Below are positions 28,054-41,860 of a DNA stretch of 42,030 nt, one piece after another. The stretch's first letter is position 1, and the number at the start of each line of letters is the position of its first letter. Source of the stretch: Botryococcus braunii (Eukaryota; Chlorophyta; Trebouxiophyceae); assembly GCA_002005505.1 (NCBI GenBank), contig KV908636.1, positions 129,911 through 171,940 of the forward strand. The letters are read 5' to 3'. A program made the translations under genes and the position numbers. Under the pieces are notes generated by a model. That model was given only the letters and a program-made list of their open reading frames with translations. It searched no databases and was not told the DNA's origin.

Positions 28054-28460
28054 GAAGCCACCCACGTAGATAGCATGTCTGAGGCCTTGGCACGTAATAA
28101 ACACCTCATATCAGGTTCATCCACATATTATACTCAGAGGCGGTCAGGTGTTCATCCTGTTGGGTTTTGTGCTTCATTATGTCATGTTAATTTGAGGTAA
28201 TTATGATTAGATAAATAGCTGTGAGTTAACTTCACAGTTAACTCAAGGTGAGGATGCCTTGACACTGGCTAATCAATCAGAAGGATAAACATTATATGGC
28301 TGTCGTCTACTGTTACTTTTTGTGGCTGAAAAACCATGCATTTACCTTTAATAAAAACGTGCATGAGAGTACTGTTAGGATAAGGGTCCAGAACTTGAGG
28401 TTTTGGACCATTAGGGAGACAGGAATTCAGGAAAAGGGTCAGGAGTACTGCTGAATAGCG
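28054..28460. other. insertion-site flank of the gypsy element
   Basis: No gene seen. A perfect 9-bp hairpin (GAGTTAACT-TCAC-AGTTAACTC) lies at 28223-28244 in AT-rich sequence. Confidence 0.5.
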
Positions 28461-28465
28461 CAACC
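28461..28465 (+). repeat. target-site duplication CAACC (left)
   Basis: CAACC immediately before the 5' LTR; the same five bases follow the 3' LTR at 34496-34500. Five bases is the usual size for LTR retrotransposons. Confidence 0.95.
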
Positions 28466-28726
28466 TGTAGCATTTCCTAGGGTATAATGCTCTAGTAGGG
28501 TCCTTGGCATAGTGCATGACTTGCCTTGTGATCTAGTTCGCAGTACAACCTCGCTCAGGTACTTCGCTCGGTTGCCCGATCACGCGTCTGTGGCAGTACG
28601 ATATAATTCAATCCACCCTGGGTTTAAGAGTACGCTTGCGAATCAATCATGTAACACTCTTTTGTTGCACACCACGAACGTCTCACTGTCTCCTTCTAAA
28701 CCTCTTCCGCTAAGCTATAGTCTACA
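28466..28726 (+). repeat. 5' LTR of gypsy element
   Basis: 261 bp, TGTAGCATTTCC to TAGTCTACA, same as 34235-34495 base for base by eye. It should hold the element's promoter. ACGATATAATTC at about 28600 is the only TATA-like string. Confidence 0.97.
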
Positions 28727-28727
28727 G

Positions 28728-28740
28728 TGGTATCGGCGAC
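28728..28740 (+). other. primer-binding site
   Basis: TGGTATCGGCGAC one base after the LTR; its TGGTATC start matches the 3' end complement of initiator tRNA-Met used by most plant LTR elements. Confidence 0.8.
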
Positions 28741-28791
28741 AAGGATTAGTTCCTTGTCGTTCGTTCGTGGTGCGTTTCTTTCGTGATTGTG

Positions 28792-29818
28792 ATGTCTCGG
28801 CATCCTTGTTCGAGTTCGAGGGTCCGTGCACCGAGTCCTGGCATCGCAGAGCCAGATCCATCCATAGATCTTCTTGCTTATGTATATGTAGATCGTTCAT
28901 GGGTAGATCTTCGTTGTATGCTTAGGCGTGTGGTAGATATCGGTGCCCTGCTCGAAGGAGCCGTTGCATTAGGATCTAGTGTTCCGTCGCATTCCCCTCC
29001 AGTTGATACCGCTCAGAGCATTTCAAAGGGACTTGAGATGTTAATTCAGTGCTCTCTCGCGCAACCTGCATCTGTGGTCGTGCCGCAGCCCATACCAACG
29101 GCGATTCCGGCATCGGCTACAGCCTCGTCAGGTTCAGGGAAGCCCTCGCTCAAGTTGCCATACCCATCTGTATTCGAGGGAGATCCAATGAAGTTGGATC
29201 CATGGCTTATGCAGACTGAAATGTGTTTGGGGACCTACGATGTAGGCTTGGCATCCGCTCGGTGGAGGTGGCTACGACGTTCTAGCGTTGGATTGGTGGA
29301 CTGGGCAGTTTAAGTTAATTGCTTCAGGGAGTCTTGCTGCTTATGGGACGTGGGAATCGTTTGTGACTGCACTTACTGCTGCTTTTAGGCCTGTAGAGCT
29401 GCATAAGAGGCATTTAGAGCAGTTGCTGAGTCTCTCACAGGGAAAGACTGACATGCGAAGCTATATTGCAACATTTAATGCATTGAGGTCAAAGGTTCCA
29501 AAGGCATTTGCAGAAGAGACTTTGTGTCACTTATTTTTGGCTGGCTGCAGGGCTGATCTTCAGAAAAGCATCTCCCTACAGTATCCCCAGACCTTGGAAG
29601 ACTGCTTCAAGCATGCTGTGACAATATCAGACCTCCCAGGACCGTCTAAGCCTGTGAACCCTGCTCCAAAGTACTCCCCTGACTCCAAGTCACCAGGCCC
29701 GACAAAAACTTCTGCGCAGCCCTGCGCACATTGTGGCAAGGCAGGACACGCAGCAGAGCGTTGCTGGAAATTGCATCCAGAGCTCAGACAACCCAAGCGC
29801 AAGTCAAGTACTACTTGA
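28792..29818 (+). pseudogene. gag: gypsy gag, frameshifted
   Basis: Starts at ATG 28792 (MSRHPCSSSRVRAPSPG). The frame is lost around 29270-29290, where the family motif VEVATTF...ALDWWTGQF is spread over three frames, and resumes in another frame through AFRPVELHKRHLEQL to the stop at 29816. The C-terminus has a CCHC zinc knuckle CAHCGKAGHAAERC (CX2CX4HX4C), which binds the element's RNA in the virus-like particle. At least two small indels are needed to explain the frames, so an intact capsid protein is not made from this copy. Confidence 0.85.
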
Positions 29819-29861
29819 TTTGTTGGTCTTCTTTGGTAAAACAGCAGTGTGAGTCCTGTTT

Positions 29862-30300
29862 ATGATGCCAGCCAACTGTTCAGAGCCCCAGTATGGTATT
29901 CCTGTTTTGTATGAGCTTGGTCATCTGCAGAATTATTTCCACAGTTGTTACCATAATTTCATGACCCATATTGTAGGTGGGCATGGTTTGTGTAGAGAGT
30001 TTCAGACATCCCCCTCTGCCAGTGACCTGATCAGTCCTGAGAGCATGTTTAAGAGAGATGCAGCTCCTCACCTTATTGATAGTGATGCTCATGTTGTTTT
30101 GTTGGTTGATAGTAGTGATAGAGAGGATTCTGTCAGCCAGCTTGTGTCACAGTTGTTGCCAGGAACAAGATTGACTGTGCTCTCTTGTCAAAGCCATTGT
30201 GAGCAGGTGCTGGAAGGGACTACTTCACAGCAGTCACATGAATTACTACTCTCGGCTTCTGTTTTGGCTGCATTGGGTTTATCTTCCACCACTATGTGCA
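29862..30300 (+). pseudogene. gag-pro linker in a third frame
   Basis: Open frame MMPANCSEPQYGIPVLYELG onward, through AAPHLIDSDAHVVLLVDSSD, then AALGLSSTTM. It sits between the gag stop and the protease and fades where the pol frame takes over near 30300. It looks like the pre-protease region of the polyprotein displaced by frameshifts; I do not know a function for it. Confidence 0.5.
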
Positions 30301-32992
30301 CACCCCATTGCAATTCCCATACAGGCTTGCCCTTGTTAGTTGTTTGGTACAGTCTGGCTGTCTCGGTGAGAAGAAGAAGCCACTGCCTGCAACCTGTTTT
30401 GACTCTTTTGTTCAGCTTGACAGTAGACACATTGTGGATGGTCTTGATCTTTCTGGTACTTGTATTGAGTTTGAGGGAACTCTTGCTGGTAGGACTGTCA
30501 GGATTTTGTTAGACAGTGGAGCTTCTGCAAATTTTATTGATGATAAACTTGTGCATGAGCTTGCCCTTCCCACTGAATCTATGAGTTCACATGTTACTGT
30601 GAGAGTAGCTGATGGCAGAACATCTATGGTAGGACATAGTGTGTCAACTGACCTGACTGTTGGGACATTGGGTTTTAGAGTCACCTGCCTCCCTACTGAG
30701 TTGACTTATTATGATCTTGTCTTGGGCAAACCTTGGCTTACTGCTTTTAACCCAGTTGTAAATTGGAAATTGAATGCTGTGTCCTTGGTTCATGCTGATC
30801 AAACACATGTACTTTTGGGGTGTCAGAGGTCAGGCATGCCAGAATATGTGGTTTCTTCTATGGAAGTAGAAGAGATGGTGAAGTTGGGTGAATCAATCTA
30901 TGTTGTTCAATTAAATGCAGTGACTGACAGTCCAGATACTGATGCATATAATGTGCCAGAGTTGGAGGAGCTTTTGCAGGAGTTTCAAGATGTTTTATCT
31001 GGACTTCCTGAAGGCCTACCCCCTACTCGTGCTGGAGACCACCATATCAGATTGGAGCCGGAGGCAACTCCTCCAGTCTCTCGTATTTACCCACTGTCCG
31101 GAGCTCAGCTGGCTGAACTTCGTGCGCAGTTACAAGAGCTCCTGGAGCGAGGCTTCATCCGCCCATCAACATCCCCTTTTGGTGCACCTATCTTATTTGT
31201 CCCAAAGAAAGATGGTGGCTGGCGTTTGTGCATTGACTATAGAGCCTTGAATAGGATTACTGTTAGGAACCAGCACCCATTGCCTAGAATTGATGAGATG
31301 TTTGAACAACTTCATGGCAGTTGTATCTTTTCTAAACTTGATCTGGCTTCTGGGTATCATCAGATACGTATGCATGAAGACAGTATAGAAAAGACTGCAT
31401 TTAAAACTCGTTATGGTCATTATGAATTTACTGTGATGCCTTTTGGGTTGACTAATGCTCCTGCCACCTTTCAGGCTGTAATGAACTCTGTCTTGGCTCC
31501 CTTTCTTGACAGATTTGTGCTAGTGTACCTAGACGATATCCTCATTTATTTTAAATCTGTTGCAGAACATATGGAGCATCTAAGAACTGTCTTGTCAGTG
31601 TTACGGGAACATAAATTTTATTGTAAAAGGTCTAAGTGTGAATTTGCTGCCAAGCAGGTGGAATACCTTGGGCACCTGTTGACACCGGATGGGATCAAGG
31701 TGGATCCTAGGAAGGTTGCTGCCATTCAGGATTGGCCCACTCCTTGTAATGTGTCACAGTTGAGAGGGTTCCTTGGGTTGACACAATATTATGACACTTT
31801 TATTGACCATTTTGCAGATGTTGCTTATCCTATGACTGAGTTGCTTAAGAAGGATATGCCTTGGACCTGGGAGGGACCCCAGAGGGAAGCCTTTGTTGCA
31901 CTGAAAGATCTTGTTTCTACTCCTCCTTGCCTGTTGATGCCTGATTTAGACAAACCTTTTGTTGTACATGTAGACGCCTCAGGATTTGCTGTTGGAGCTG
32001 TACTACAGCAGGATCAAGGGAAGGGACTGCAGCCCGTGGCCTTCGAATCCAGGAAATTCCAACCCCCTGAAAGGAAGTTAGCACCCTATGATAGAGAATT
32101 GCTTGCCCTGATACATGCATTACTGAAGTGGAAGCATTTGTTGCTAGGGGCTAAGTTTACTGTGCACACTGACCAGCAAGCACTTAAGTATTTACTTACT
32201 GCTCCTGTTAGGACTAGTAGACAAGAACGTTGGCTTACTGAGATCATGAGGTTCATGCCTGACATCAAATATGTTAAAGGGACTGACAACGTTGTTGCAG
32301 ATGCTTTATCCAGGCGTGTTGATTTAGCAGTAATGCATGTCTCCTCTGTTTCTGTCTCGTCCCTCCTACCAGAAATTGCTTTGCTGTGTACTAATGACCC
32401 CACAGTTACTAAACTGGTGGAAGAAGGTGTTTTGGTGATGAGAGACACTATACCTTATTCTGTGCAGTCAGGTCGAGTATTTGTCCCTGATGCAATGAGA
32501 GAGAAGGTATTGAGAGAGTGTCATTCCACCCCCTTTTCTGGACATCTTGGGATTAACAAGATGCATGACTTAGTTTGCAGGAACTTTTGGTGGCCACGGC
32601 TCAACTCGTCAGTCAGGGACTTTTGCAGGTCTTGTGACACCTGCCAGCGCACTAAAGGGACGGGAACTGTACCTTATGGACTGCTCCAGCCACTACCTAT
32701 TCCGGATGGACCTTGGCAGAGCGTTTCCCTGGACTTAGTGACTGATTTACCTGTCTGTTGTGGGTTTGATTCTATTGTGGTATTTGTTGATAGGTTTTCT
32801 AAGTTGTGTGTATTGGCTGCATGCAATAAAACTATCACTGCACCCCAGCTTGCACAACTATTTATTGACAGGGTCTTTGTGAGATTTGGAATGCCTACCT
32901 CAATTGTGAGTGATAGAGATCCTAGGTTCACTAGCCATTTTTGGCAGGCCTTTATGAATATATTAGACTGCCTTAAAGTGTGCCAAATCTAA
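30296..32992 (+). pseudogene. pol: gypsy pol: protease, RT, RNase H, 5' part of integrase
   Basis: An 898-codon open frame. Aspartic protease LLDSGASANFIDD (catalytic Asp at about residue 73). Reverse transcriptase with KKDGGWRLCIDYRALN, FSKLDLASGYHQIR and the catalytic YLDDILIY at about 411. RNase H with VHVDASGFAVGAVLQQD, LLALIHALLKWKHLL and HTDQQALKYLL. Integrase HHCC finger (HLGINKMHDLVCRNFWWPR, CRSCDTCQRTKG), then core motifs SLDLVTDLP and SDRDPRFTSHFWQAF. It then breaks off at FMNILDCLKVCQI and stops. RT and RNase H look intact, integrase cannot be active. Confidence 0.93.
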
Positions 32993-33476
32993 CCTTGCCT
33001 CTGCACAGCAACGGCAGAAGACTTACGCGGATAAGAAGAGACGGGACCATCCTTTTAAGGTGGGGGACCAGGTCTTGCTGGCTGCGAGGAAGAACTAGCT
33101 TGAACCTGGGCTCTCGTCCAAGTTATCAGCTAAGTATTTTGGGCCCTTTGTGATTGCTGCAGCAGTTGGTTCTCGAGCTTTTAGGCTTGTGTTGCCTGAG
33201 ACTGTTAACATTCATCCTGTATTTCATGTTTCCCAGTTGAAGCCATATGTATCTTCATCTGTACCAGTGACCGTTACTTCACCACCTCCTTTGTATGCAG
33301 ACAGGCGTGGCGGCGTGTACGAAGTGGAGGCCATCATAGCTAAGAAGAGAGTTGGAAAGTCTTGGCGCTACTTAGTCAAATGGAAAGGCTACGATGAGAC
33401 TGAGAATACTTGGGAGCCTCTTGCCCATGTTCGCCATCTGGCTGATGACGTGGCAGCTGCCCCTGTCTTCTCCTAA
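32966..33476 (+). pseudogene. integrase C-terminus with chromodomain
   Basis: In a different frame from pol: ALKCAKSNLASAQQRQKTYA, an in-frame TAG after LLAARKN, then the GPF/Y-type module KLSAKYFGPFVI through LPETVNIHPVFHVSQLKPYV. A chromodomain follows: YEVEAIIAKKRVGKSWRYLV, then KWKGYDETENTWEPL. In chromoviruses this domain binds modified histone H3 and steers integration to heterochromatin. The segment between integrase motif SDRDPRF and this C-terminus, including the catalytic Glu and the HPQTDGQTER-type region, is missing. Confidence 0.9.
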
Positions 33477-34234
33477 GTCCCACTTGCGGGCATCCCTTGA
33501 TTAAGCCATTTGCGGCTTGAGCCTTTTCCAGCCACTTGCGGCTGATGACCCTTGGAGCTTCAATGCCAGCCAGCTTGGGTTTGGGAGGGAGGGAGGGTGG
33601 AAGGGTCTGGGAGGGGGATTCGTGATTGGGGATTTGCATGCATGTCTCTTGGTTATATGTTTTGCATGGGTTATGTTTCCTTGACCCACGGCTCCACTTT
33701 GTGATGCACTTGCTGTTGCAGTGTAGCTGCAAATTGTAGTTCCGTGCTTGAATAACTTGCTTTGGTATCTTACCCATGAGATACAACATGTGGCAGTTAG
33801 TGTGTCTAGCTTGCTGCTCTAGACAATATGCCTTATGCCCGTTGTTGGAAAACCACCTCAAGCGAAGGTTGCACTGCGTAGCAGGGTAACTGGACCTAAG
33901 GTTTGGACAAGTGCTAGTCTAATGACTCAACCTTATTGTTTCATCACTGGTGTGAGTGCTGTCTAGGGAGTTCGTCCCCTAAGTTAGAGGATCCGCCTTG
34001 CAGACGATAGTCCTTAGAATGTTAAGGTATTCGAGCATTGAGCAGATGAGTCCCTCGTCTGTGTCGTGCTAAACTTGCTTGTGGATTTCATCCTCTAACT
34101 TGCGTTATGTAGTAACTATAGGAGGTGTGATTGTCTATAGTTACAGTAAGCAGGGTTCGTGATACTCCTGTCTTACGTTTGTGGCCCCAATTGCCATAAA
34201 CATCATCTCATAGCTTATGCCAAGGGGGAGGGCA
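33477..34234 (+). other. gypsy 3' untranslated region and polypurine tract
   Basis: Non-coding. Near the start three diverged copies of an ACTTGCGG / ATTTGCGG motif are spaced by about 30 bp. The last bases 34222-34234 (AAGGGGGAGGGCA) form the polypurine tract that primes plus-strand DNA, directly next to the LTR. Confidence 0.85.
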
Positions 34235-34495
34235 TGTAGCATTTCCTAGGGTATAATGCTCTAGTAGGGTCCTTGGCATAGTGCATGACTTGCCTTGTGA
34301 TCTAGTTCGCAGTACAACCTCGCTCAGGTACTTCGCTCGGTTGCCCGATCACGCGTCTGTGGCAGTACGATATAATTCAATCCACCCTGGGTTTAAGAGT
34401 ACGCTTGCGAATCAATCATGTAACACTCTTTTGTTGCACACCACGAACGTCTCACTGTCTCCTTCTAAACCTCTTCCGCTAAGCTATAGTCTACA
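34235..34495 (+). repeat. 3' LTR of gypsy element
   Basis: Same 261 bp as the 5' LTR, no difference seen; followed by CAACC at 34496-34500. Confidence 0.97.
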
Positions 34496-34500
34496 CAACC
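34496..34500 (+). repeat. target-site duplication CAACC (right)
   Basis: Matches 28461-28465; the pre-insertion site reads ...AATAGCG-CAACC-TTCACGCGC.... Confidence 0.95.
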
Positions 34501-34550
34501 TTCACGCGCTGATCTGAGTATTGATAGGCTTAGAACCCGGAAGGACAGGC

Positions 34551-34974
34551 AGTCATTCGCTCTCTAAAGGCTTGTTCAAGCCGTCTCCTGTTTGACTCGT
34601 CTGTTCTCTTATTGTCTTGCTTTCTCTTCTACTCACTGTGTGTGAGCAATTCCCTGAAAGCAACAGTCTAATCTGGTAAGACTCCGGGTCATGACGGCCT
34701 CAGTTCGTTCACAGCCATGAGTGCTGAATATTGACTAGTTACTAACATAAGTGTGTTAATTCTACAGATTGTACACCAGTTCGACACCATTGAGTATGTG
34801 TGCCTGATTGAACTGGTGCAATATCTGGTAAGCCGGCAGTGTGACGTCTTGGTATTAGAGTAGTAATGTAGAAATCATGCAAGATACTAAAGGTGTTAGT
34901 GCGTTGACAGGATGATATACGTGTACGTATATTGATAATCTATATTTGATCTTTGACACCTTTGGATCTTGCAG
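34551..34974 (+). other. three exons with two introns (unspliced copy)
   Basis: Segments 34551-34675 (125 bp), 34768-34827 (60 bp) and 34911-34974 (64 bp) recur joined together at 35017-35265. The two pieces missing from that copy are a 92-bp intron (34676-34767, GTAAGA to TTCTACAG, with a TTACTAAC branch-point-like string) and an 83-bp intron (34828-34910, GTAAGC to TTGACAG). The third segment is followed by a donor-like GTGAGA. No long reading frame crosses these segments, so they look like 5' untranslated exons. Confidence 0.93.
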
Positions 34975-35016
34975 GTGAGATTAGATAGTGTGTGTGTTCG
35001 TTCGTTCAACGTTGTA

Positions 35017-35265
35017 AGTCATTCGCTCTCTAAAGGCTTGTTCAAGCCGTCTCCTGTTTGACTCGTCTGTTCTCTTATTGTCTTGCTTTCTCTTCTACTC
35101 ACTGTGTGTGAGCAATTCCCTGAAAGCAACAGTCTAATCTGATTGTACACCAGTTCGACACCATTGAGTATGTGTGCCTGATTGAACTGGTGCAATATCT
35201 GGATGATATACGTGTACGTATATTGATAATCTATATTTGATCTTTGACACCTTTGGATCTTGCAG
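35017..35265 (+). other. exactly spliced copy of 34551-34974
   Basis: 125 + 60 + 64 bp in direct succession, identical by eye to the three exon segments upstream and joined precisely at both splice junctions. It continues into ATCACAATGGTTATGGGCCC, so it is the 5' end of a longer spliced RNA copy. Only 42 bp separate it from the unspliced version. Confidence 0.93.
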
Positions 35266-35271
35266 ATCACA

Positions 35272-35956
35272 ATGGTTATGGGCCCACCCATGGAGTCTCG
35301 ACGCCTAGAAGTGCAGCGTGCGAATCTCATTCACTTTGGCGTGGAGCAACATAGAAAAGGGCGCTTCCGTTGCGACTCGTGCGATAACTACTTCTTTGGA
35401 AAGGTCCCCTTAGATCAAGTAGCATCGGCAATTGATAGTGGTTGCTATCGTTTCGAACGCTTCTGTGACATTGGTACATAAATTGAAAGAAAAAACAGAA
35501 GGAATAATCCATTTCTGAGTTTGTCTATCCTTACCGACCACCTGGCTCTGAATCCGAAGAACTTCGGCCTGTTAAACGAAGTCGGTGTGAAGTTATCTAT
35601 TCGTATCGACCTTTTATTGAAGAGCAACACTCATTAAGTGATTGGGAAAGAGACTGTGTGAATCACAAACATTAGTTTAGATCGCTGTGGGTAGAAGCTG
35701 GATTATTGGTGGACTCCTGTGACAAAAATCCTTCAGACACTTTCTTCTACTGGTTAGTAATTGAAGTATTCACCCTACTTTCATTGGCAAAATCCTTAAC
35801 TTGGTACTCTATCCTGAATTGCACGGTCAAGACCTTATTAGAATCAGATTGGAAGGTGAAAGACGTAGAATTATTGACCAATTTGCTGAGGATGTTGAAA
35901 CAAACAATCACTTAGTCCTTGCAAGTGTTTATTCTTTGGCGTACCAAGGCACCTGA
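35272..35956 (+). pseudogene. decayed extra ORF upstream of copia gag
   Basis: Three blocks in different frames read like one broken protein. 35272-35481: MVMGPPMESRRLEVQRANLI, then RKGRFRCDSCDNYFFGKVPL. 35508-35760: EFVYPYRPPGSESEELRPVK, a TAG at 35673, then SLWVEAGLLVDSCDKNPSDT. 35765-35956: SIHPTFIGKILNLVLYPELH, then LIRIRLEGERRRIIDQFAED and a stop. Two frameshifts and one stop would explain it. The CDSC motif hints at a metal site. I do not recognise the family. The first ATG lies just after the spliced 5' segments, and the stop is 36 bp before the gag ATG. Confidence 0.5.
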
Positions 35957-35992: not shown

Positions 35993-38900
35993 ATGAGTAA
36001 TTCAGCTGGAGCATCTGCTCCTGGTGGTAATCCAACGGTTGCCTCAGGTAGCACACCTGACCCACATAATCCTGTTTATAACAACCAGAAATTGGTACAA
36101 TCTCTGGATGTTGATTGTATAAATGGGTTCAGGTGGGCTAAGGATGTTGAAAATGTTGCTAATAGTAAGAGAATCAGGATATGCCTTGAAGAGGAGCACC
36201 CGGATACGCCTGGTGACTCACTGGCTATGAGTCTAGTGACAGAAAAGATTCCCGACGAGTGGATAGATAAAGCGCTCGACATGCCTTCAGCCAAGCAAGC
36301 CTATGAGTGGCTGAAAGGTAAGTTCACAGGAGGTAAAAATCAAAAGCTCATGTCTAAATGGGCTTTTCTCCTTGATTCAGGTAAAATCGAGGATGCCCAG
36401 ACCTACATGGCATTTGTAGCCATGAAGTTCAAGCTGGCTAGAGGTCTTAGGGCAAATAATCACCCTGTGGATGATGAGCGCCTCATAATGGGAATTGTCA
36501 GTGGGCTGCCCAAGGCTTTTTCTCATGATTTAGGCCATCTGTATGATTCATGCTTGGGAAAAGATGAGGATGAGGTTGTGTCTCGTATCAGTGCCAGTGC
36601 AAAATTCTTAGGAATCGATCAGCACAAGGCTCCCTCTGCGTCAGCAAACCTTGTTCCTCCTCCCAGACCAAGGAATGCCCCTACTTATGAGGGTGTGAGG
36701 CCGAAGGGCATGCCTCATGATCTACCAACAGAGTTTCGTGGCTGTTGGTTCTGCCTTGGAGATGGTCATAGAAGGCAGGACTGTCAGAAGTACAAAGATG
36801 ATTGTGCCAGGAGAGCTGCAATCATGGCTGGCAAGGGGCGATCTCAAAATCTTGTTGGAGGAATGGCCATGATTGACTCCTCAGATTCAGGTAAATTGTC
36901 ATCACTATGGGTAGTAGATTCTGGAGCTTCCACACATATCTGCAATGATGTGAGATTAATGAATAACGTACATTGGTATCCAGTTCCAAAGGGTCTAAAT
37001 CTGGCCACTGGTGAACATGTGGCGCAACGCAAAGCATCTGGAATCGTATGCTTGGTTGATCAGCAGGGCAACACATGTATGTTGAGGGATGTTGAATTTG
37101 TTCCGACTGCGTTGGAAAATTTAATGTCAGTATCTGCTGGAGTCGTCGACGGTCTTAGTTTTTCAACTAATTCAGTAGGTGAAGTCACAAGTGTCTGCTG
37201 TCTGAAATCATCCTTCACAATGGAAGTTACAAAGGAGAGAGGGTTGTATTTTTGTTCAACATCATGTCAGTCAATGAAGCCCCCTCACACTGCTGGTCTT
37301 GCGCACAAGTGCTCCGAGTATGATCTCTGGCATGCAAGGTTAGGACATCCTGGAAGTAAAAACATGGAACGACTGCAGACAGAAAATATGGTTAAAGGGA
37401 TTGAAACCTCTTTATCTCCTTGCTCACATGGTCACTCACTATGCGAGGTGTGTGTTTTGGGTAAGCAGACTAGAGAAAGCTACCAGCGTTCCCCTGCAAC
37501 GGCTACAGAGCGCCTACAGCTTGTCCATATGGATATCGTTGGTGAACTTCCTGTACCGGGGGCAGAAGGGGAGAGGTATATGCTCACTGTGCTGGATGAT
37601 TTTTCTAAGGCTGGTGAAGCAAGGGCTCTATGCTACAAGTCTCAGGTGGGCGATGCTGTTAAAGCAATCCTACTATATTTAGAAAATCAAACTGGTCACT
37701 CTGTAAAGGTGGTTAGGACTGACAGGGGGACTGAATTTGTTAACTCAGATTTACACGAGTTTTTTCAGTCAAAGGGCATCAGACATGAAACGTCTGCACC
37801 CTACACACCTCAACAAAATGGTAGGGCAGAGCGTTTTAACAGATCCTTAAAGGAGAAGGTTAGAATGTTGCTGCTACAAGCTAAGGCCCCACAAAGTATG
37901 TGGACCGACGCACTGCCTACTGCTGTCAGGCTACTTAATCTTAGAGCTACTAAGGGGAAGTCTGCCACCCCTTATGAGCTACTGTTCGGCAGGAAACCTT
38001 CTGTGCATTATTTGAGGGTCTTTGGCTGTCTCGCGTACATCAAAATTCCAGACAAAGACTTGTCTGCCTTCTCCCCTAGGTCAGAGGCTGGTATGTTCGT
38101 GGGTTATGAACCAGCATCTAAGGCATACAGGATAAGGGTTGGCAGTAAGGTCAAGGTATCGAAAAATGTTAAGTTTTTCGAAGATAAATTGGGAATTCAC
38201 ACTCTCTCTACTAAAACCCAATTGCCCTCTGACTTCCCACGTGAAGTAAATTGTGATCAGGTGCCAAGCGCTGCAGATGAGGATGACTGGGATTTTGTTC
38301 CGGTTGACATTGCCGACGCCTTGGAGATGAACAGGGAAGCTGGAAGGGGAGTAGATCAAATCCTTCCAGCTAACCTAGAAGTTATGCAGAGACTGAACGA
38401 AGTTCTGAGGGAACAGGCTCTGGCGGAAGAGAGTGGGATCAGAGAGACACATGGCTCAGCCATCTCAGGGGAAGAGTTAATGGGCCTTGGGACTGGACAG
38501 GAACATCCAGAGGAGGGTGTGAATAATCCATGCTCAGAGTCGGATAACGATAACTCATCACATGAGTCTGACAATGATGATGATGTGCAGGAAAGGGTGA
38601 GGGGTGGAACAAGTCGGTATGATCTAAGAGAGACACTTGCTCAACCAGATAAGTATGTTCCAGGTGCTTATCATGTAAAGGACAATCCATTACTAGGCGC
38701 AACAGAGGTTACACCACCCATGCAGAATGGAGCAAGAGAGAAAGTCAACATTGCATCTAGAGATGTGAGGATTCCTAACGATTGGTTTGAAGCCAGGAAT
38801 TCACCCCAATGGGTGTACTGGCTGGAGGCCATGAACGAGGAAATGGACTCCATCGAAGCGCATGAAACCTTTGAGTATTGTGACAAGCCATCACATGCAA

Positions 38901-39112
38901 AGGTGATCCCACTGAAGTGGGTTTATGCTATTAAAACTGATGGTTTTGGGGATGTAGTCAGGTTCAAGGCTAGACTTGTTGCTCAAGGATGCAAGCAACG
39001 GCCAGGAGTGGACTATTTTGAGACGTTTGTGAAATATTCTGGGCTTGGCGTATCCTGCATGGTGGCGGCACGGAGGGTGTTAGACGATGTCCTCCTACTT
39101 GTGCGTTGTTAA
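35993..39112 (+). CDS. gag-pol: copia gag-pol polyprotein, cut off in RT
   Basis: ATG 35993 (MSNSAGASAPGG) opens 1039 codons without a stop. Gag with zinc knuckle CWFCLGDGHRRQDC (from residue 251); protease VVDSGASTHICND (Asp about 309); integrase HHCC finger HARLGHPGSK...CEVCVLGKQ. The core is D514 (VHMDIVGELPV), D577 (RTDRGTEFVN) and E613 (NGRAERFNRS), the classic D,D(35)E spacing. Reverse transcriptase begins at WLEAMNEEMDSIEAHETFE, continues through VIPLKWVYAIKTD and RFKARLVAQGC, and stops matching after DYFETFVKYSGLGV. The last 19 codons are read from the other element's LTR. Gag through integrase look intact, so the copy is young. Confidence 0.93.
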   Translation: MSNSAGASAPGGNPTVASGSTPDPHNPVYNNQKLVQSLDVDCINGFRWAKDVENVANSKRIRICLEEEHPDTPGDSLAMSLVTEKIPDEWIDKALDMPSAKQAYEWLKGKFTGGKNQKLMSKWAFLLDSGKIEDAQTYMAFVAMKFKLARGLRANNHPVDDERLIMGIVSGLPKAFSHDLGHLYDSCLGKDEDEVVSRISASAKFLGIDQHKAPSASANLVPPPRPRNAPTYEGVRPKGMPHDLPTEFRGCWFCLGDGHRRQDCQKYKDDCARRAAIMAGKGRSQNLVGGMAMIDSSDSGKLSSLWVVDSGASTHICNDVRLMNNVHWYPVPKGLNLATGEHVAQRKASGIVCLVDQQGNTCMLRDVEFVPTALENLMSVSAGVVDGLSFSTNSVGEVTSVCCLKSSFTMEVTKERGLYFCSTSCQSMKPPHTAGLAHKCSEYDLWHARLGHPGSKNMERLQTENMVKGIETSLSPCSHGHSLCEVCVLGKQTRESYQRSPATATERLQLVHMDIVGELPVPGAEGERYMLTVLDDFSKAGEARALCYKSQVGDAVKAILLYLENQTGHSVKVVRTDRGTEFVNSDLHEFFQSKGIRHETSAPYTPQQNGRAERFNRSLKEKVRMLLLQAKAPQSMWTDALPTAVRLLNLRATKGKSATPYELLFGRKPSVHYLRVFGCLAYIKIPDKDLSAFSPRSEAGMFVGYEPASKAYRIRVGSKVKVSKNVKFFEDKLGIHTLSTKTQLPSDFPREVNCDQVPSAADEDDWDFVPVDIADALEMNREAGRGVDQILPANLEVMQRLNEVLREQALAEESGIRETHGSAISGEELMGLGTGQEHPEEGVNNPCSESDNDNSSHESDNDDDVQERVRGGTSRYDLRETLAQPDKYVPGAYHVKDNPLLGATEVTPPMQNGAREKVNIASRDVRIPNDWFEARNSPQWVYWLEAMNEEMDSIEAHETFEYCDKPSHAKVIPLKWVYAIKTDGFGDVVRFKARLVAQGCKQRPGVDYFETFVKYSGLGVSCMVAARRVLDDVLLLVRC

Positions 39113-39196
39113 GTAGGCACGGACATATACAAGTCAAGGACTGGTTAGCAACTGATTGATAGACACCCGGAGTGCCACTATAGTTCCAACCAAGTG
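39054..39196. repeat. 143-bp direct repeat, left copy
   Basis: Starts CCTGCATGGTGGCGGCACGG, ends TCCAACCAAGTG. The same sequence is at 39375-39517, offset 321 bp, no difference seen. Confidence 0.95.
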
Positions 39197-39720
39197 TTAC
39201 AATATCTCTCATCTCTCCTAACAAGGTGACGCAGTTCAAACACGCCTAACCTGCTCTCACCCAGGTCGTGTTCATTACTTTGTCCGATGAGCTAAACTCA
39301 ACTCTATATGTCTAACATGTTCTAACAATGTTCATCTGAGTGCTAAATCCAGGAATACAATAAGGATTAAGTCACCTGCATGGTGGCGGCACGGAGGGTG
39401 TTAGACGATGTCCTCCTACTTGTGCGTTGTTAAGTAGGCACGGACATATACAAGTCAAGGACTGGTTAGCAACTGATTGATAGACACCCGGAGTGCCACT
39501 ATAGTTCCAACCAAGTGCCTTCCCTATCCGTGCTTGCCCCATATGCCTCCTTTCTACAAACGTGTCTGTAACTTGCGTTATGATAGTCTTCGTTCAAATG
39601 CATGTATTGCCTGGCAGAACTCAGGGTTCTGCCTCTCTTTCCTAATTGGTATTGTCTTCATACGGAGACTTGCCATTATTACTCCTCTGAGGGAAAGGCA
39701 TAAAATTAATTAACACAACA
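39056..39720 (-). repeat. 3' LTR of the - strand copia element (665 or 344 bp)
   Basis: The right end is firm: on the - strand the LTR starts TGTTGTGTTAATTAATTTTA at 39720, directly after the polypurine tract. The left end is either TG at 39056, which coincides with the break in the forward polyprotein, or TG at 39377, giving 344 bp. The 143-bp duplication makes both ends look alike. Confidence 0.7.
39375..39517. repeat. 143-bp direct repeat, right copy
   Basis: Second copy of 39054-39196, within the LTR of the - strand element. Confidence 0.95.
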
Positions 39721-39738: not shown

Positions 39739-41751
39739 TCACAGAAACTTGGCCAGTCCCAGTGAGTTACGATGTCCCAGAAACACTTGTCTAACTAGTG
39801 GTTTGGTAAAAATGTCAGCCACATTTCTAGCAGATTGAATGTACTTGAATTCAACCTGCCCCTTTGCAATAGCTTCACGTGCGAAATGACAGCTAATTGC
39901 AATATGCTTTGTGTGTTTGGAGTACACCGGATTCCTCAGGTGGTTTATACACCCTTGGTTGTCACAATGAATCTTCACTATCCACGGTAACACTCCAATT
40001 TCCTCCAGGAAACCTCTCAGCCAATTTGCTTCCTTCACAACAGCACTTGCTGCCATGAATTCAGCCTCCACTGTTGAAGTGGCAACAGCAGATTGCTTTT
40101 TACTTCCCCACACTACTGCTCCTCCAAACACAGTGAGGACAAAGCCAGTGGTAGAGAAGCGATGATCCTGATCACCTCCATAGTCGGCATCCACATAGCC
40201 TTCTAGCTCTATCTCCCCCCCTCCGAGAGTTAGAACCAAATCTCGGGTTCCTTTCAGATACTTCAACACACGGATGGCTTCATTCCAATGTGCTGTGGTG
40301 GGAGATATGCGATAACGAGACAATACACCTACTGCCTGAGCTATATCGGGACGTGTGGTGTTGGCTATATACAGAAGAGACCCTACTAACTCACAGTAAC
40401 GGTGACCTGGAGGTAGTGGACTGCCAGCACCAATGCTGTCGCTCCCATCTCTCGGTGCAGGCCTTTGGGACATTACGAAATCTTTTGTCATGGGAGTATC
40501 AGGTCCCACTGACTCAAGATCCAAGCCAAATTTCTCTACAAGTGCATCGATTTTAGGGATGCAACTCAGGGTGATCAGCCCTTTATCTCTATCTCTCATC
40601 ACTTGACATCCCAAGAAATCCTTCACTTCCCCAAGATCATGGATGGTGAATTCTTTCTTGAGAAGTCCCTTCACTCTCTCGATTTCTGACATGCCCTTGG
40701 AAACTATCAGAAGATCATCAACATAGATCAGCACATAGGACTTTCCTCCATCAGTAGAGCATCTCACATACACTCCCGCATCACTCTTGCACACCTCATA
40801 CCCCATGACTTCAAGTTTGTCATTCAGGGTTTTGTGCCAGGCACGTGGAGCCTGCTTCAGGCCATACAACGCCTTTCTCAATCGGCACACAATATTCTTA
40901 TCACCATTCTCAAAGCCAGGAGGTTGCGTTACATATACTTCCTCCTCGAGCTCACCATTCAGAAAGGCGGTCTTAACGTCCACCTGATGAATTTCACAGC
41001 CCTCTCTTGCAGCAACAGCAAGCAGAGCTCTTCTAGCTCCATAGCTACTAGTAGGAGCAAAGACCTCCATCACATCCACTCCAGGGATTTGTCTGCATCC
41101 CTGTGCCACTAATCTGGCCTTGAATCTCACAACATTGCCATGTGCATCCATTTTCACTGAAAATATCCAGTGAACTGGAATAACCTTATGTCCACGAGGT
41201 CTCGGAACATACTCCATGACCTCATGAGTATCTAGAGAATTTTGCTCTTCCTGCATAGCTGCCTTCCAGTATTCCCACTGGGGAGACATCTGTGCTTCTC
41301 TCAAATTAGAGGGAACGTGAATTTTCCCAAATCTGACACCTGTGTGCTTTTCCTCTGAATTGCCTGATTTTCTCTCACTTTGTCCAGAACCCACTACTCT
41401 TCCACTGACACTCGCTGAGTTACACATCACAGGCTCTCCAGTAGAAGTAGAATGCTCTCTCATAGCACGCTCTCGCTTGGACTCACACTTGGCTTTGCAC
41501 AAGTTACTCTGCTCATCCCTCACATCATCCTCCCATGCACAGGTACCTCTCGGACAGTCTTTGTAATTTGGAATCCCTTCACATTGTCCAGACTTCCGAT
41601 TCACCTCCTCAGACACACTCTGACATGCCTGCAAGAGTTCAGACTCTTCAGGTCTCTCACAAGCAACATCGGATATGCAGTGTCTGCATACTTCCCCTAT
41701 TATGTGATCCACATGCCTCTCAGACCGACTGCATGTCACTGTTGGATGACC
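39739..41751 (-). CDS. pol: copia reverse transcriptase and RNase H
   Basis: Open from 41751 to the stop at 39739. A Cys-rich linker comes first (NYKDCPRGTCAWEDD), then RT: SPQWEYWKAAMQEEQNSLD, VIPVHWIFSVKMD, RFKARLVAQGCRQIPGVD, EIHQVDVKTAFLNGELEEEV, LRKALYGLKQAPRAW and the catalytic YVDDLLIVSKG near 40.72 kb. RNase H follows: YVDADYGGDQDHR, KKQSAVATSTVEAEFMAAS, CDNQGCINHLRNP, HIAISCHFAREA. It ends at ADIFTKPLV...LGLAKFL just before the polypurine tract. All catalytic motifs look intact. A stop (TGA) at 41752 separates it from the upstream polyprotein. Confidence 0.93.
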   Translation of the reverse strand, partial: GHPTVTCSRSERHVDHIIGEVCRHCISDVACERPEESELLQACQSVSEEVNRKSGQCEGIPNYKDCPRGTCAWEDDVRDEQSNLCKAKCESKRERAMREHSTSTGEPVMCNSASVSGRVVGSGQSERKSGNSEEKHTGVRFGKIHVPSNLREAQMSPQWEYWKAAMQEEQNSLDTHEVMEYVPRPRGHKVIPVHWIFSVKMDAHGNVVRFKARLVAQGCRQIPGVDVMEVFAPTSSYGARRALLAVAAREGCEIHQVDVKTAFLNGELEEEVYVTQPPGFENGDKNIVCRLRKALYGLKQAPRAWHKTLNDKLEVMGYEVCKSDAGVYVRCSTDGGKSYVLIYVDDLLIVSKGMSEIERVKGLLKKEFTIHDLGEVKDFLGCQVMRDRDKGLITLSCIPKIDALVEKFGLDLESVGPDTPMTKDFVMSQRPAPRDGSDSIGAGSPLPPGHRYCELVGSLLYIANTTRPDIAQAVGVLSRYRISPTTAHWNEAIRVLKYLKGTRDLVLTLGGGEIELEGYVDADYGGDQDHRFSTTGFVLTVFGGAVVWGSKKQSAVATSTVEAEFMAASAVVKEANWLRGFLEEIGVLPWIVKIHCDNQGCINHLRNPVYSKHTKHIAISCHFAREAIAKGQVEFKYIQSARNVADIFTKPLVRQVFLGHRNSLGLAKFL

Positions 41752-41860
41752 TCACATCTCTGACATCACTCTCCCAGCACAGGTACCTCTCAGTGAGCAC
41801 TTGTAATTTGGTCTGTCTCCACAATGTCTGTGCTCCTGATTCACCTCTCCTCTCGTCCCT
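41520..41860 (-). repeat. diverged tandem repeat in the copia linker region
   Basis: On the - strand EEVNRKSGQCEGIPNYKDCP-RGTCAWE and EVNQEHRHCGDRPNYKCSLRGTCAG are clearly related and about 240 bp apart; the second unit lies beyond the stop at 41752. The DNA shares CACAGGTACCTCTC and TTTGTAATTTGG-type blocks. Confidence 0.75.

Follow-up and report, generated by a model that had tools for sequence, protein, structure and literature searches.

The window, the whole stretch of 42,030 nucleotides of Botryococcus braunii DNA analysed here, carries a copia element, designated family I, into which a gypsy-type element and a second copia element (family O) are inserted (Table 1). Within the 5′ LTR of the first copia lies a block, A (34551-34974), consisting of exons of 125, 60 and 64 bp split by GT-AG introns of 92 and 83 bp. 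After a gap of 42 bp it is followed by block B, a continuous 249-bp copy of the A exons with 0 mismatches. A perfect match of 249 bases interrupted solely at two GT-AG units is not due to chance. This layout had been described in an earlier note on the same DNA and was found to be exact on re-reading the window, and the second copy, which the note had attributed to spliced RNA, does have the sequence of a spliced RNA. The suggestion that B sits inside a third intron also agrees with the sequence, since the GTGAGA at the start of the gap looks like a donor and B falls within the putative intron that it would open. A TGTAA motif, the proposed poly(A) signal, straddles the junction of gap and B in the window.

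The link drawn earlier to a copia gag-pol was borne out by Pfam domains in the open reading frame 35993-39112, namely gag_pre-integrs, rve (506-606), SH3_retrovirus and the start of RVT_2 (958-1013). An integrase upstream of an RVT_2-type reverse transcriptase in one polyprotein is the Ty1/copia order. The open frame continues into the LTR of family O, an element inserted in reverse orientation into the reverse transcriptase part of the first copia; the 5′ LTR of family O lies outside the window because the window ends at the contig end. The reverse transcriptase frame of family O has a 71-bp repeat with 75% identity upstream (41537-41607 and 41777-41847). Among the best 120 of 2503 relatives of the integrase part, the top ones were unnamed metagenome proteins (up to 91%), and the named ones included Adiantum (41%), Volvox (~45%) and Closterium (36-38%). 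Relatives among viral contigs were absent from one search, and another returned five distant loci at 27-33%.

The U3 of the family I LTR is split by the gypsy-type element. Positions 28158-28466 match U3 positions 1-309 of another copy, L009, at 98.4%, the last base belonging to the nested element. Junction read-out and self-comparison gave an apparent target duplication, CAACC, and the gypsy open reading frame (30581-32992) contains Pfam RVT_1, RNase H and integrase domains. The nested element interrupts the LTR and is not part of the mechanism considered below.

Table 1 Features of the copia locus, in window coordinates
Feature	Position	Strand	Remarks
5′ LTR, U3/promoter side, first part	28158..28465	+	Family I; U3 split by nested gypsy
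Gypsy-type element nested in U3	28466..34495	+	Direct repeats 28466-28726 and 34235-34495
Remaining U3 (positions 304-358)	34496..34550	+	100% match to L009 U3; ends with the C before the proposed start site
A exon 1 (E1)	34551..34675	+	125 bp; first base is the proposed transcription start
Intron 1 of A	34676..34767	+	92 bp, GT-AG, GTAAG..TACAG; contains TTACTAAC; recognisable in diverged loci
A exon 2 (E2)	34768..34827	+	60 bp
Intron 2 of A	34828..34910	+	83 bp, GT-AG, GTAAG..GACAG
A exon 3 (E3)	34911..34974	+	64 bp; 3′ end TTGCAG
Gap between A and B	34975..35016	+	42 bp; begins GTGAGA, ends TTGTA
B, spliced copy E1E2E3	35017..35265	+	Proposed R plus U5
Proposed third intron	34975..35265	+	Donor GTGAGA (34975) to acceptor TTGCAG (35265); encloses the gap and the whole of B
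ATCACA, LTR 3′ end	35266..35271	+	From LTR borders and target duplications
Primer binding site (PBS) GGTTATGGGCCCACC	35274..35288	+	Two bases after ATCACA; exact 15-nt tRNA complement
Copia gag-pol, same element	35993..39027	+	Interrupted by the next insertion (family O) at 39028
Family O 3′ LTR (second copia)	39028..39720	-	Same plan
Family O exon copy B′	39055..39195	-	3′ end ATGCAG (acceptor)
Family O gap	39196..39375	-	Starts GTGACT (donor), ends TTGTAAC
Family O exon copy A′	39376..39516	-	141 bp, 100% identical to B′
Family O copia reverse transcriptase part	39739..41463	-	RVT_2, E 4e-67

LTR forms and families across the genome

The genome to which the window belongs (176 Mb, 989 contigs) was searched for further copies of the 715-bp unit of A, gap and B. 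From 196 first-look candidates 40 were scored, of which 35, the window's own place included, matched the full 715 bp at 97-100%; the remainder comprised one match at 83% and four partial ones. Assembly collapse of two loci as a source of the layout is excluded by the many copies of the unit across the genome. Many of the matches were paired ~6200 bp apart. Direct repeats of 1077-1092 bp were present in 11 compared pairs (1079 bp in six of them), and the A-gap-B unit occurred in both repeats of all 11 elements. Because these repeats end in TGTTGGGT..ATCACA and are flanked by 5-bp target duplications, e.g. GAAAC, GTTAC and CACTG, they are LTRs, and direct TG..CA LTRs with a short target duplication are again as in Ty1/copia elements. 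The family I LTR is made up of a 358-bp U3, A (424 bp), the gap (42 bp), B (249 bp) and a final 6 bp. The unit does precede a copia gag-pol, as had been noted, but it lies within an LTR and not beside one, the stretch before gag being the R-U5 side of the LTR itself. The 5-bp target duplications at LTR pairs and at solo LTRs indicate that the double-copy LTRs are mobile. Copy numbers are not insertion numbers, as L022/L023 and L034/L039 have common flanks and some loci may be two haplotypes of a single insertion. Of L034 (C809) and L039 (C926), one has 22 bp inserted into B where E2 meets E3, and the insert resembles the junction sequence in inverted orientation.

The PBS in the window is exactly complementary, over 15 nt, to the anticodon region of two tRNA-Met(cat) genes in the same genome. 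A PBS for a host tRNA adjoining the 5′ LTR is a further Ty1/copia trait, and this exact type was found in the window/L004, L009 and L013. A commoner type, longer by a T and a C, was present in 12 of the 15 loci with the PBS in view.

Spliced and unspliced junctions were scanned for with up to three mismatches, and read-backwards sequences were used as the control. The spliced E1|E2 junction gave 54 matches (control 1) and the unspliced junction of E1 with intron 1 gave 58 (control 22), so that part of the weak unspliced matches is due to chance. Both forms of the leader, which the earlier note had proposed to tell apart throughout the genome, were found; 38 pair in the order unspliced-then-spliced, 462-493 bp apart. 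Same-strand junction matches within 1000 bp included no spliced-spliced and no unspliced-unspliced pair. Neither a doubly spliced A, nor a partly spliced B, nor an E-gap-E-gap-E array was seen in the junction matches and the fetched loci; the matches C34:12 and C70:297775 fall outside the fetched loci.

Shorter LTR forms were present as well. LTRs with the spliced unit only (U3-E1E2E3-ATCACA) make up both LTRs of L042/L043, L046/L047 and L048/L049, with the target duplications GCCCT, CCCAC and GCAAC, and occur also at L050. The U3 variant 171insA of such LTRs is found in the long-form L031/L032 too, and 160T>C in several long forms, while 138T>C and 290A>T are exclusive to L046/L047. From these differing U3 variants we infer that the spliced-only LTRs arose more than once. 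LTRs with A alone, lacking gap and B, were found at L036, L037 and the diverged L060. Single-E and A-only LTRs do not decide the mechanism, because deletion between repeats or strand transfer onto A could produce both. The single-E LTRs at L042/L043, L046/L047, L048/L049, L050 and L090 are without the TGTAA-bearing gap.

Three further LTR families (O, P and Q) have an exon ending CAG|GT, a gap with TGTAA at its end, and an exon copy ending in CAG; the inner introns 1 and 2 are missing from the O, P and Q loci seen. With the family O LTR as the query, at least 40 perfect matches were obtained in the genome (40 of 886 candidates were scored). The PBS 15-mer had 1956 genome-wide matches at up to one mismatch (read-backwards control 30), which suggests a very large copia load. 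Six of seven PBS places that were chosen by hand, not randomly, among the matches listed (1956 in total) have the same plan, L085, L089, L091, L097 and L099 belonging to family P and L098 to family Q. The seventh, L090, has a single exon copy.

The junction signals recur across these families. The gap begins with GT directly after the CAG of the block end in 9 of 12 family I-III loci and in 7/7 O/P/Q loci, where the cut in L098, shifted by one base in the joint read-out, was corrected to TACAG|GTGCGG. The second copy ends in CAG at the expected place in 11/12 and 7/7 loci, respectively, the CAG of L062 lying three bases earlier because of the chosen cut, and TGTAA is present at the junction of gap and second copy in 8/12 and 7/7. 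All 19 loci (12/12 of families I-III) have C/A at positions -1/+1 of the start of A. We take TGTAA to be a candidate poly(A) signal and C|A to be a candidate initiator. In four of five tubulin genes TGTAA occurs 84-229 nt past the stop codon, with none within 577 nt in the fifth; AATAAA is also downstream in four of the five and is closer to the stop than TGTAA in two, so the tubulin support for TGTAA is weak. Five tubulin introns, read by position, look like GT-AG introns with CAG acceptors, as do the LTR introns.

Concerted change of the two exon copies

Diverged long-form LTRs were found at L038 (family Ib), L053-L059 (family II), and L061 and L062 (family III). The A-gap-B layout is retained in relatives whose exons are 17-26% different, and families I, Ib, II and III resemble one another in gap sequence and at both junctions. 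The long-form loci that were compared have introns in A and none in B. In the old copies L054, L057 and L058, B carries additions or changes of another kind, so only parts of their B entered the counts given below. In L054 (C11:26000-30000) B contains extra tandem sequence, and intron 1, ~800 bp long, includes a stretch closely resembling the family Q exon.

For each pair of loci, quartets of the two A and two B copies were counted as concerted (A equals its own B and the loci differ), old paralogue (A equals A, B equals B, and A differs from B) or crossed. The counts in this order were 33:0:0 for I-Ib, 35-41:0:0 for I-II, 48-49:0:0 for I-III and 40-49:0-1:0-2 for II-III. Summed over the inter-family pairs of 11 loci, without L035 (which is included in the individual counts), there were 1297 concerted, 7 paralogous and 11 crossed counts. 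The concerted counts fall in 80 distinct columns. Since the same sequences enter several pairs, the pairwise counts are not independent of one another, but the contrast between concerted and paralogous does not hinge on this. For three O and three P loci, the counts were 53-56:0:0 for O-P, 27-29:0:0 for P1-P2 and 2:0:0 for L085-L091, with 0-1 mismatches between own A and B in each of these six loci and 0-2 across seven O/P/Q loci. L027 and L033, which are separate insertions, share a change at A2:42 and B2:42, that is, a change of subfamily depth present in both copies. L036, L037, L039 and L040 were excluded from the alignment in which this change was read. The A-B tests also excluded the truncated L041, L044, L045, L051 and L052 (except the family O LTR in L044) and L063-L070, which are without such an LTR (L067 and L070 have a short match).

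The agreement between A and B extends to 2-4 nt from the splice junctions. Up to 5 nt from a junction there were 7 concerted columns, 0 paralogous ones and one crossed count. Within-locus A-B differences amounted to 13/215 at up to 5 nt, 14/215 at 6-10 nt, 23/431 at 11-20 nt and 112/1786 beyond 20 nt, a flat rate with no rise toward the junctions.

These results bear on how the double copy came about. The earlier note had read it as a one-off self-retroprocessing of one leader next to its template, kept as a fossil. The exact spliced copy at the window site would suit that account; however, there are 35 near-identical full-length matches, the unit is in both LTRs of the 11 compared elements, diverged families share both the layout and the concerted change, and three more LTR families follow the plan. 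A one-off processed retrocopy is marked by a single locus, intron loss and decay after insertion, whereas the unit is multi-copy, internal to the LTR and kept alike. A single fossil event is contradicted by the multi-copy LTR location and the concerted change, and we regard it as hardly credible. The layout stands in the LTRs of several diverged families whose copies co-evolve, and the concerted change of A and B points to re-making during replication rather than to a single past accident.

It is very improbable that spliced cDNA was instead inserted time and again, founding the layout separately in each family, and that no regular renewal followed inside a family. Such origins would leave A and B identical or nearly so within the young copies of each family, as was found, but I, Ib, II and III have similar gaps and similar sequence at both junctions, and changes of subfamily depth are present in both copies (L027/L033, L085/L091, P1/P2), so that renewal would need to be frequent even then.

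A single old spliced-cDNA event, after which A and B were kept alike by template switching or gene conversion, would not need splicing. Direct repeats do invite template switching, and the single-E LTRs (L042/L043, L046/L047, L048/L049, L050 and L090) and A-only LTRs (L036, L037 and L060) show that exchange or deletion takes place. Nevertheless, the intron-flanked exons of 60 and 64 bp in families I-III would need two switches each. A and B agree to 2-4 nt of the junctions without decay at the edges, the long-form loci compared show no intron in B and none lost from A, and the homology stops at CAG|GT in LTR families of different sequence. On these grounds, this explanation appears unlikely.

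A proposed replication cycle

We consider it probable that the RNA of these elements starts in A and is spliced from the last A donor to the acceptor ending B, and that minus strong-stop DNA rewrites B in each cycle. This proposal builds on the layout, the LTR borders, the PBS, the target duplications and the concerted evolution, which were observed directly. The LTR plan would be promoter, E(A), GT donor, gap ending in TGTAA, E(B) with a final CAG, a short tail and CA. Transcription would begin at the first base of E(A), and RNA from the 5′ LTR would be spliced from the donor directly after E(A) to the CAG acceptor closing E(B), a splice that would take out the gap, the poly(A) signal in the gap, and E(B). 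As the CAG at the end of E doubles as exon end and acceptor, E(A)-tail-PBS and E(B)-tail-PBS would be the same in sequence. RNA from the 3′ LTR would be cut right past TGTAA, barely inside E(B), and the terminal redundancy R would then consist of the initial bases of E. The minus strong-stop DNA made from the spliced 5′ end would pair with R and become the new E(B), and the promoter, E(A) and gap would come from the 3′ LTR; E(B) would in this way be rewritten from E(A) every cycle. In family I the two introns of E(A) would be absent from the copy becoming E(B) and retained in E(A). Transcription start, polyadenylation site, splicing, including removal of the third intron, and strand transfer are all predicted steps.

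With a start in E(A) and a cut within the beginning of E(B) at the 3′ LTR, RNA left unspliced at its 5′ end would make the LTR longer in every round (E-gap-E-gap-E). Removal of the gap and E(B) by splicing would let the LTR reproduce itself with E(B) always a processed copy of E(A), for which reason the homologous block would span from start site to splice site, B would be intronless, and A and B would change together. The missing partly spliced B, doubly spliced A and triple array fit this cycle, as negative evidence.

The replicating RNA could otherwise start at E(B), the classical R, with A as an alternative upstream promoter and exon for messenger RNA. TGTAA just upstream of B would then sit in U3, the classical solution, and two promoters in one LTR have been reported for barley BARE (PMC3735527). 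Under such an arrangement A would be no template for B and the two would be expected to drift apart, of which nothing was seen. We consider this start improbable; a classical start at B with A as a bystander was rejected because A and B would diverge but do not. The sequence instead suggests a transcription start in A and R in B.

For the proposed cycle to work, RNA from the 3′ LTR must retain introns 1 and 2 of A. This requirement counts against the cycle and is its weakest step, for which the data offer no explanation. The PBS type with two extra bases, which departs from the tRNA match in 12 of the 15 loci, also speaks against it. Introns 1 and 2 may have begun as gains in A after the duplication, a possibility considered because the O, P and Q loci seen have no inner introns. 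Intron gain in A leaves the concerted change of A and B unexplained.

On balance, the evidence leans towards a broader reading, held somewhat less firmly than the cycle itself, in which a large group of copia elements in this genome would replicate only via RNA with a 5′ end made by splicing. Transcription would begin at an exon further upstream, an intron comprising the 5′ poly(A) signal and all of R-U5 would be removed, and reverse transcription would restore R-U5 from the spliced exon in each cycle, which would also let true introns persist in the LTR.

Comparison with known LTR elements

Passage through RNA is expected to rid retroelements of their introns. LTR elements, for their part, have to use their 3′ poly(A) signal yet ignore the identical 5′ signal. 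If the proposed cycle is true, the second problem would be solved by splicing the 5′ signal out, with long-term carriage of introns within the LTR as a by-product. Splicing would be added as a required step of the LTR cycle, and strand transfer would have left a natural trace in the LTRs, one that can be read from the sequence by itself and put to a direct test.

The family I element resembles Ty1/copia elements (Pseudoviridae) in its gag-pre-integrase domain, integrase before RVT_2, TG..CA LTRs, 5-bp target duplications, and a PBS complementary to the tRNA-Met(cat) anticodon region; Drosophila copia is primed by a tRNA-iMet half. Unlike them, it has the leader twice in its LTR, with a donor after the first copy, an acceptor closing the second, and a second copy that tracks the spliced first. 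In HTLV/BLV and foamy virus, a splice donor lies in R and the 5′ poly(A) site is suppressed. These retroviruses are alike in that LTR-proximal splicing signals are coupled to the silencing of the 5′ poly(A) site, but their acceptor is not known to lie in the LTR, nor their R-U5 to be rebuilt from an upstream exon after splicing.

Nothing similar was found in the titles and abstract beginnings returned by a thin literature search, from which absence from print is not claimed. As far as the portions consulted go, the introns of BARE and EVADE lie in the gag-pol part and those of Ogre serve subgenomic RNA (PMC3735527, PMC8226300, PMC12786077). Ogre and EVADE have functional introns and make subgenomic RNA by alternative splicing, the EVADE intron lying within gag-pol; they differ from the present elements in that the parts of that account consulted mention no LTR-internal intron (PMC12786077). 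BARE1 of barley, a copia element with a spliced subgenomic gag RNA, two LTR promoters and LTR transcripts divided by function, is closer in these respects. Its intron, however, is in the gag-pol part and its authors argue that the spliced RNA must stay out of replication (PMC3735527), whereas in the elements described here the sequence suggests that the replicated 5′ end is itself spliced.
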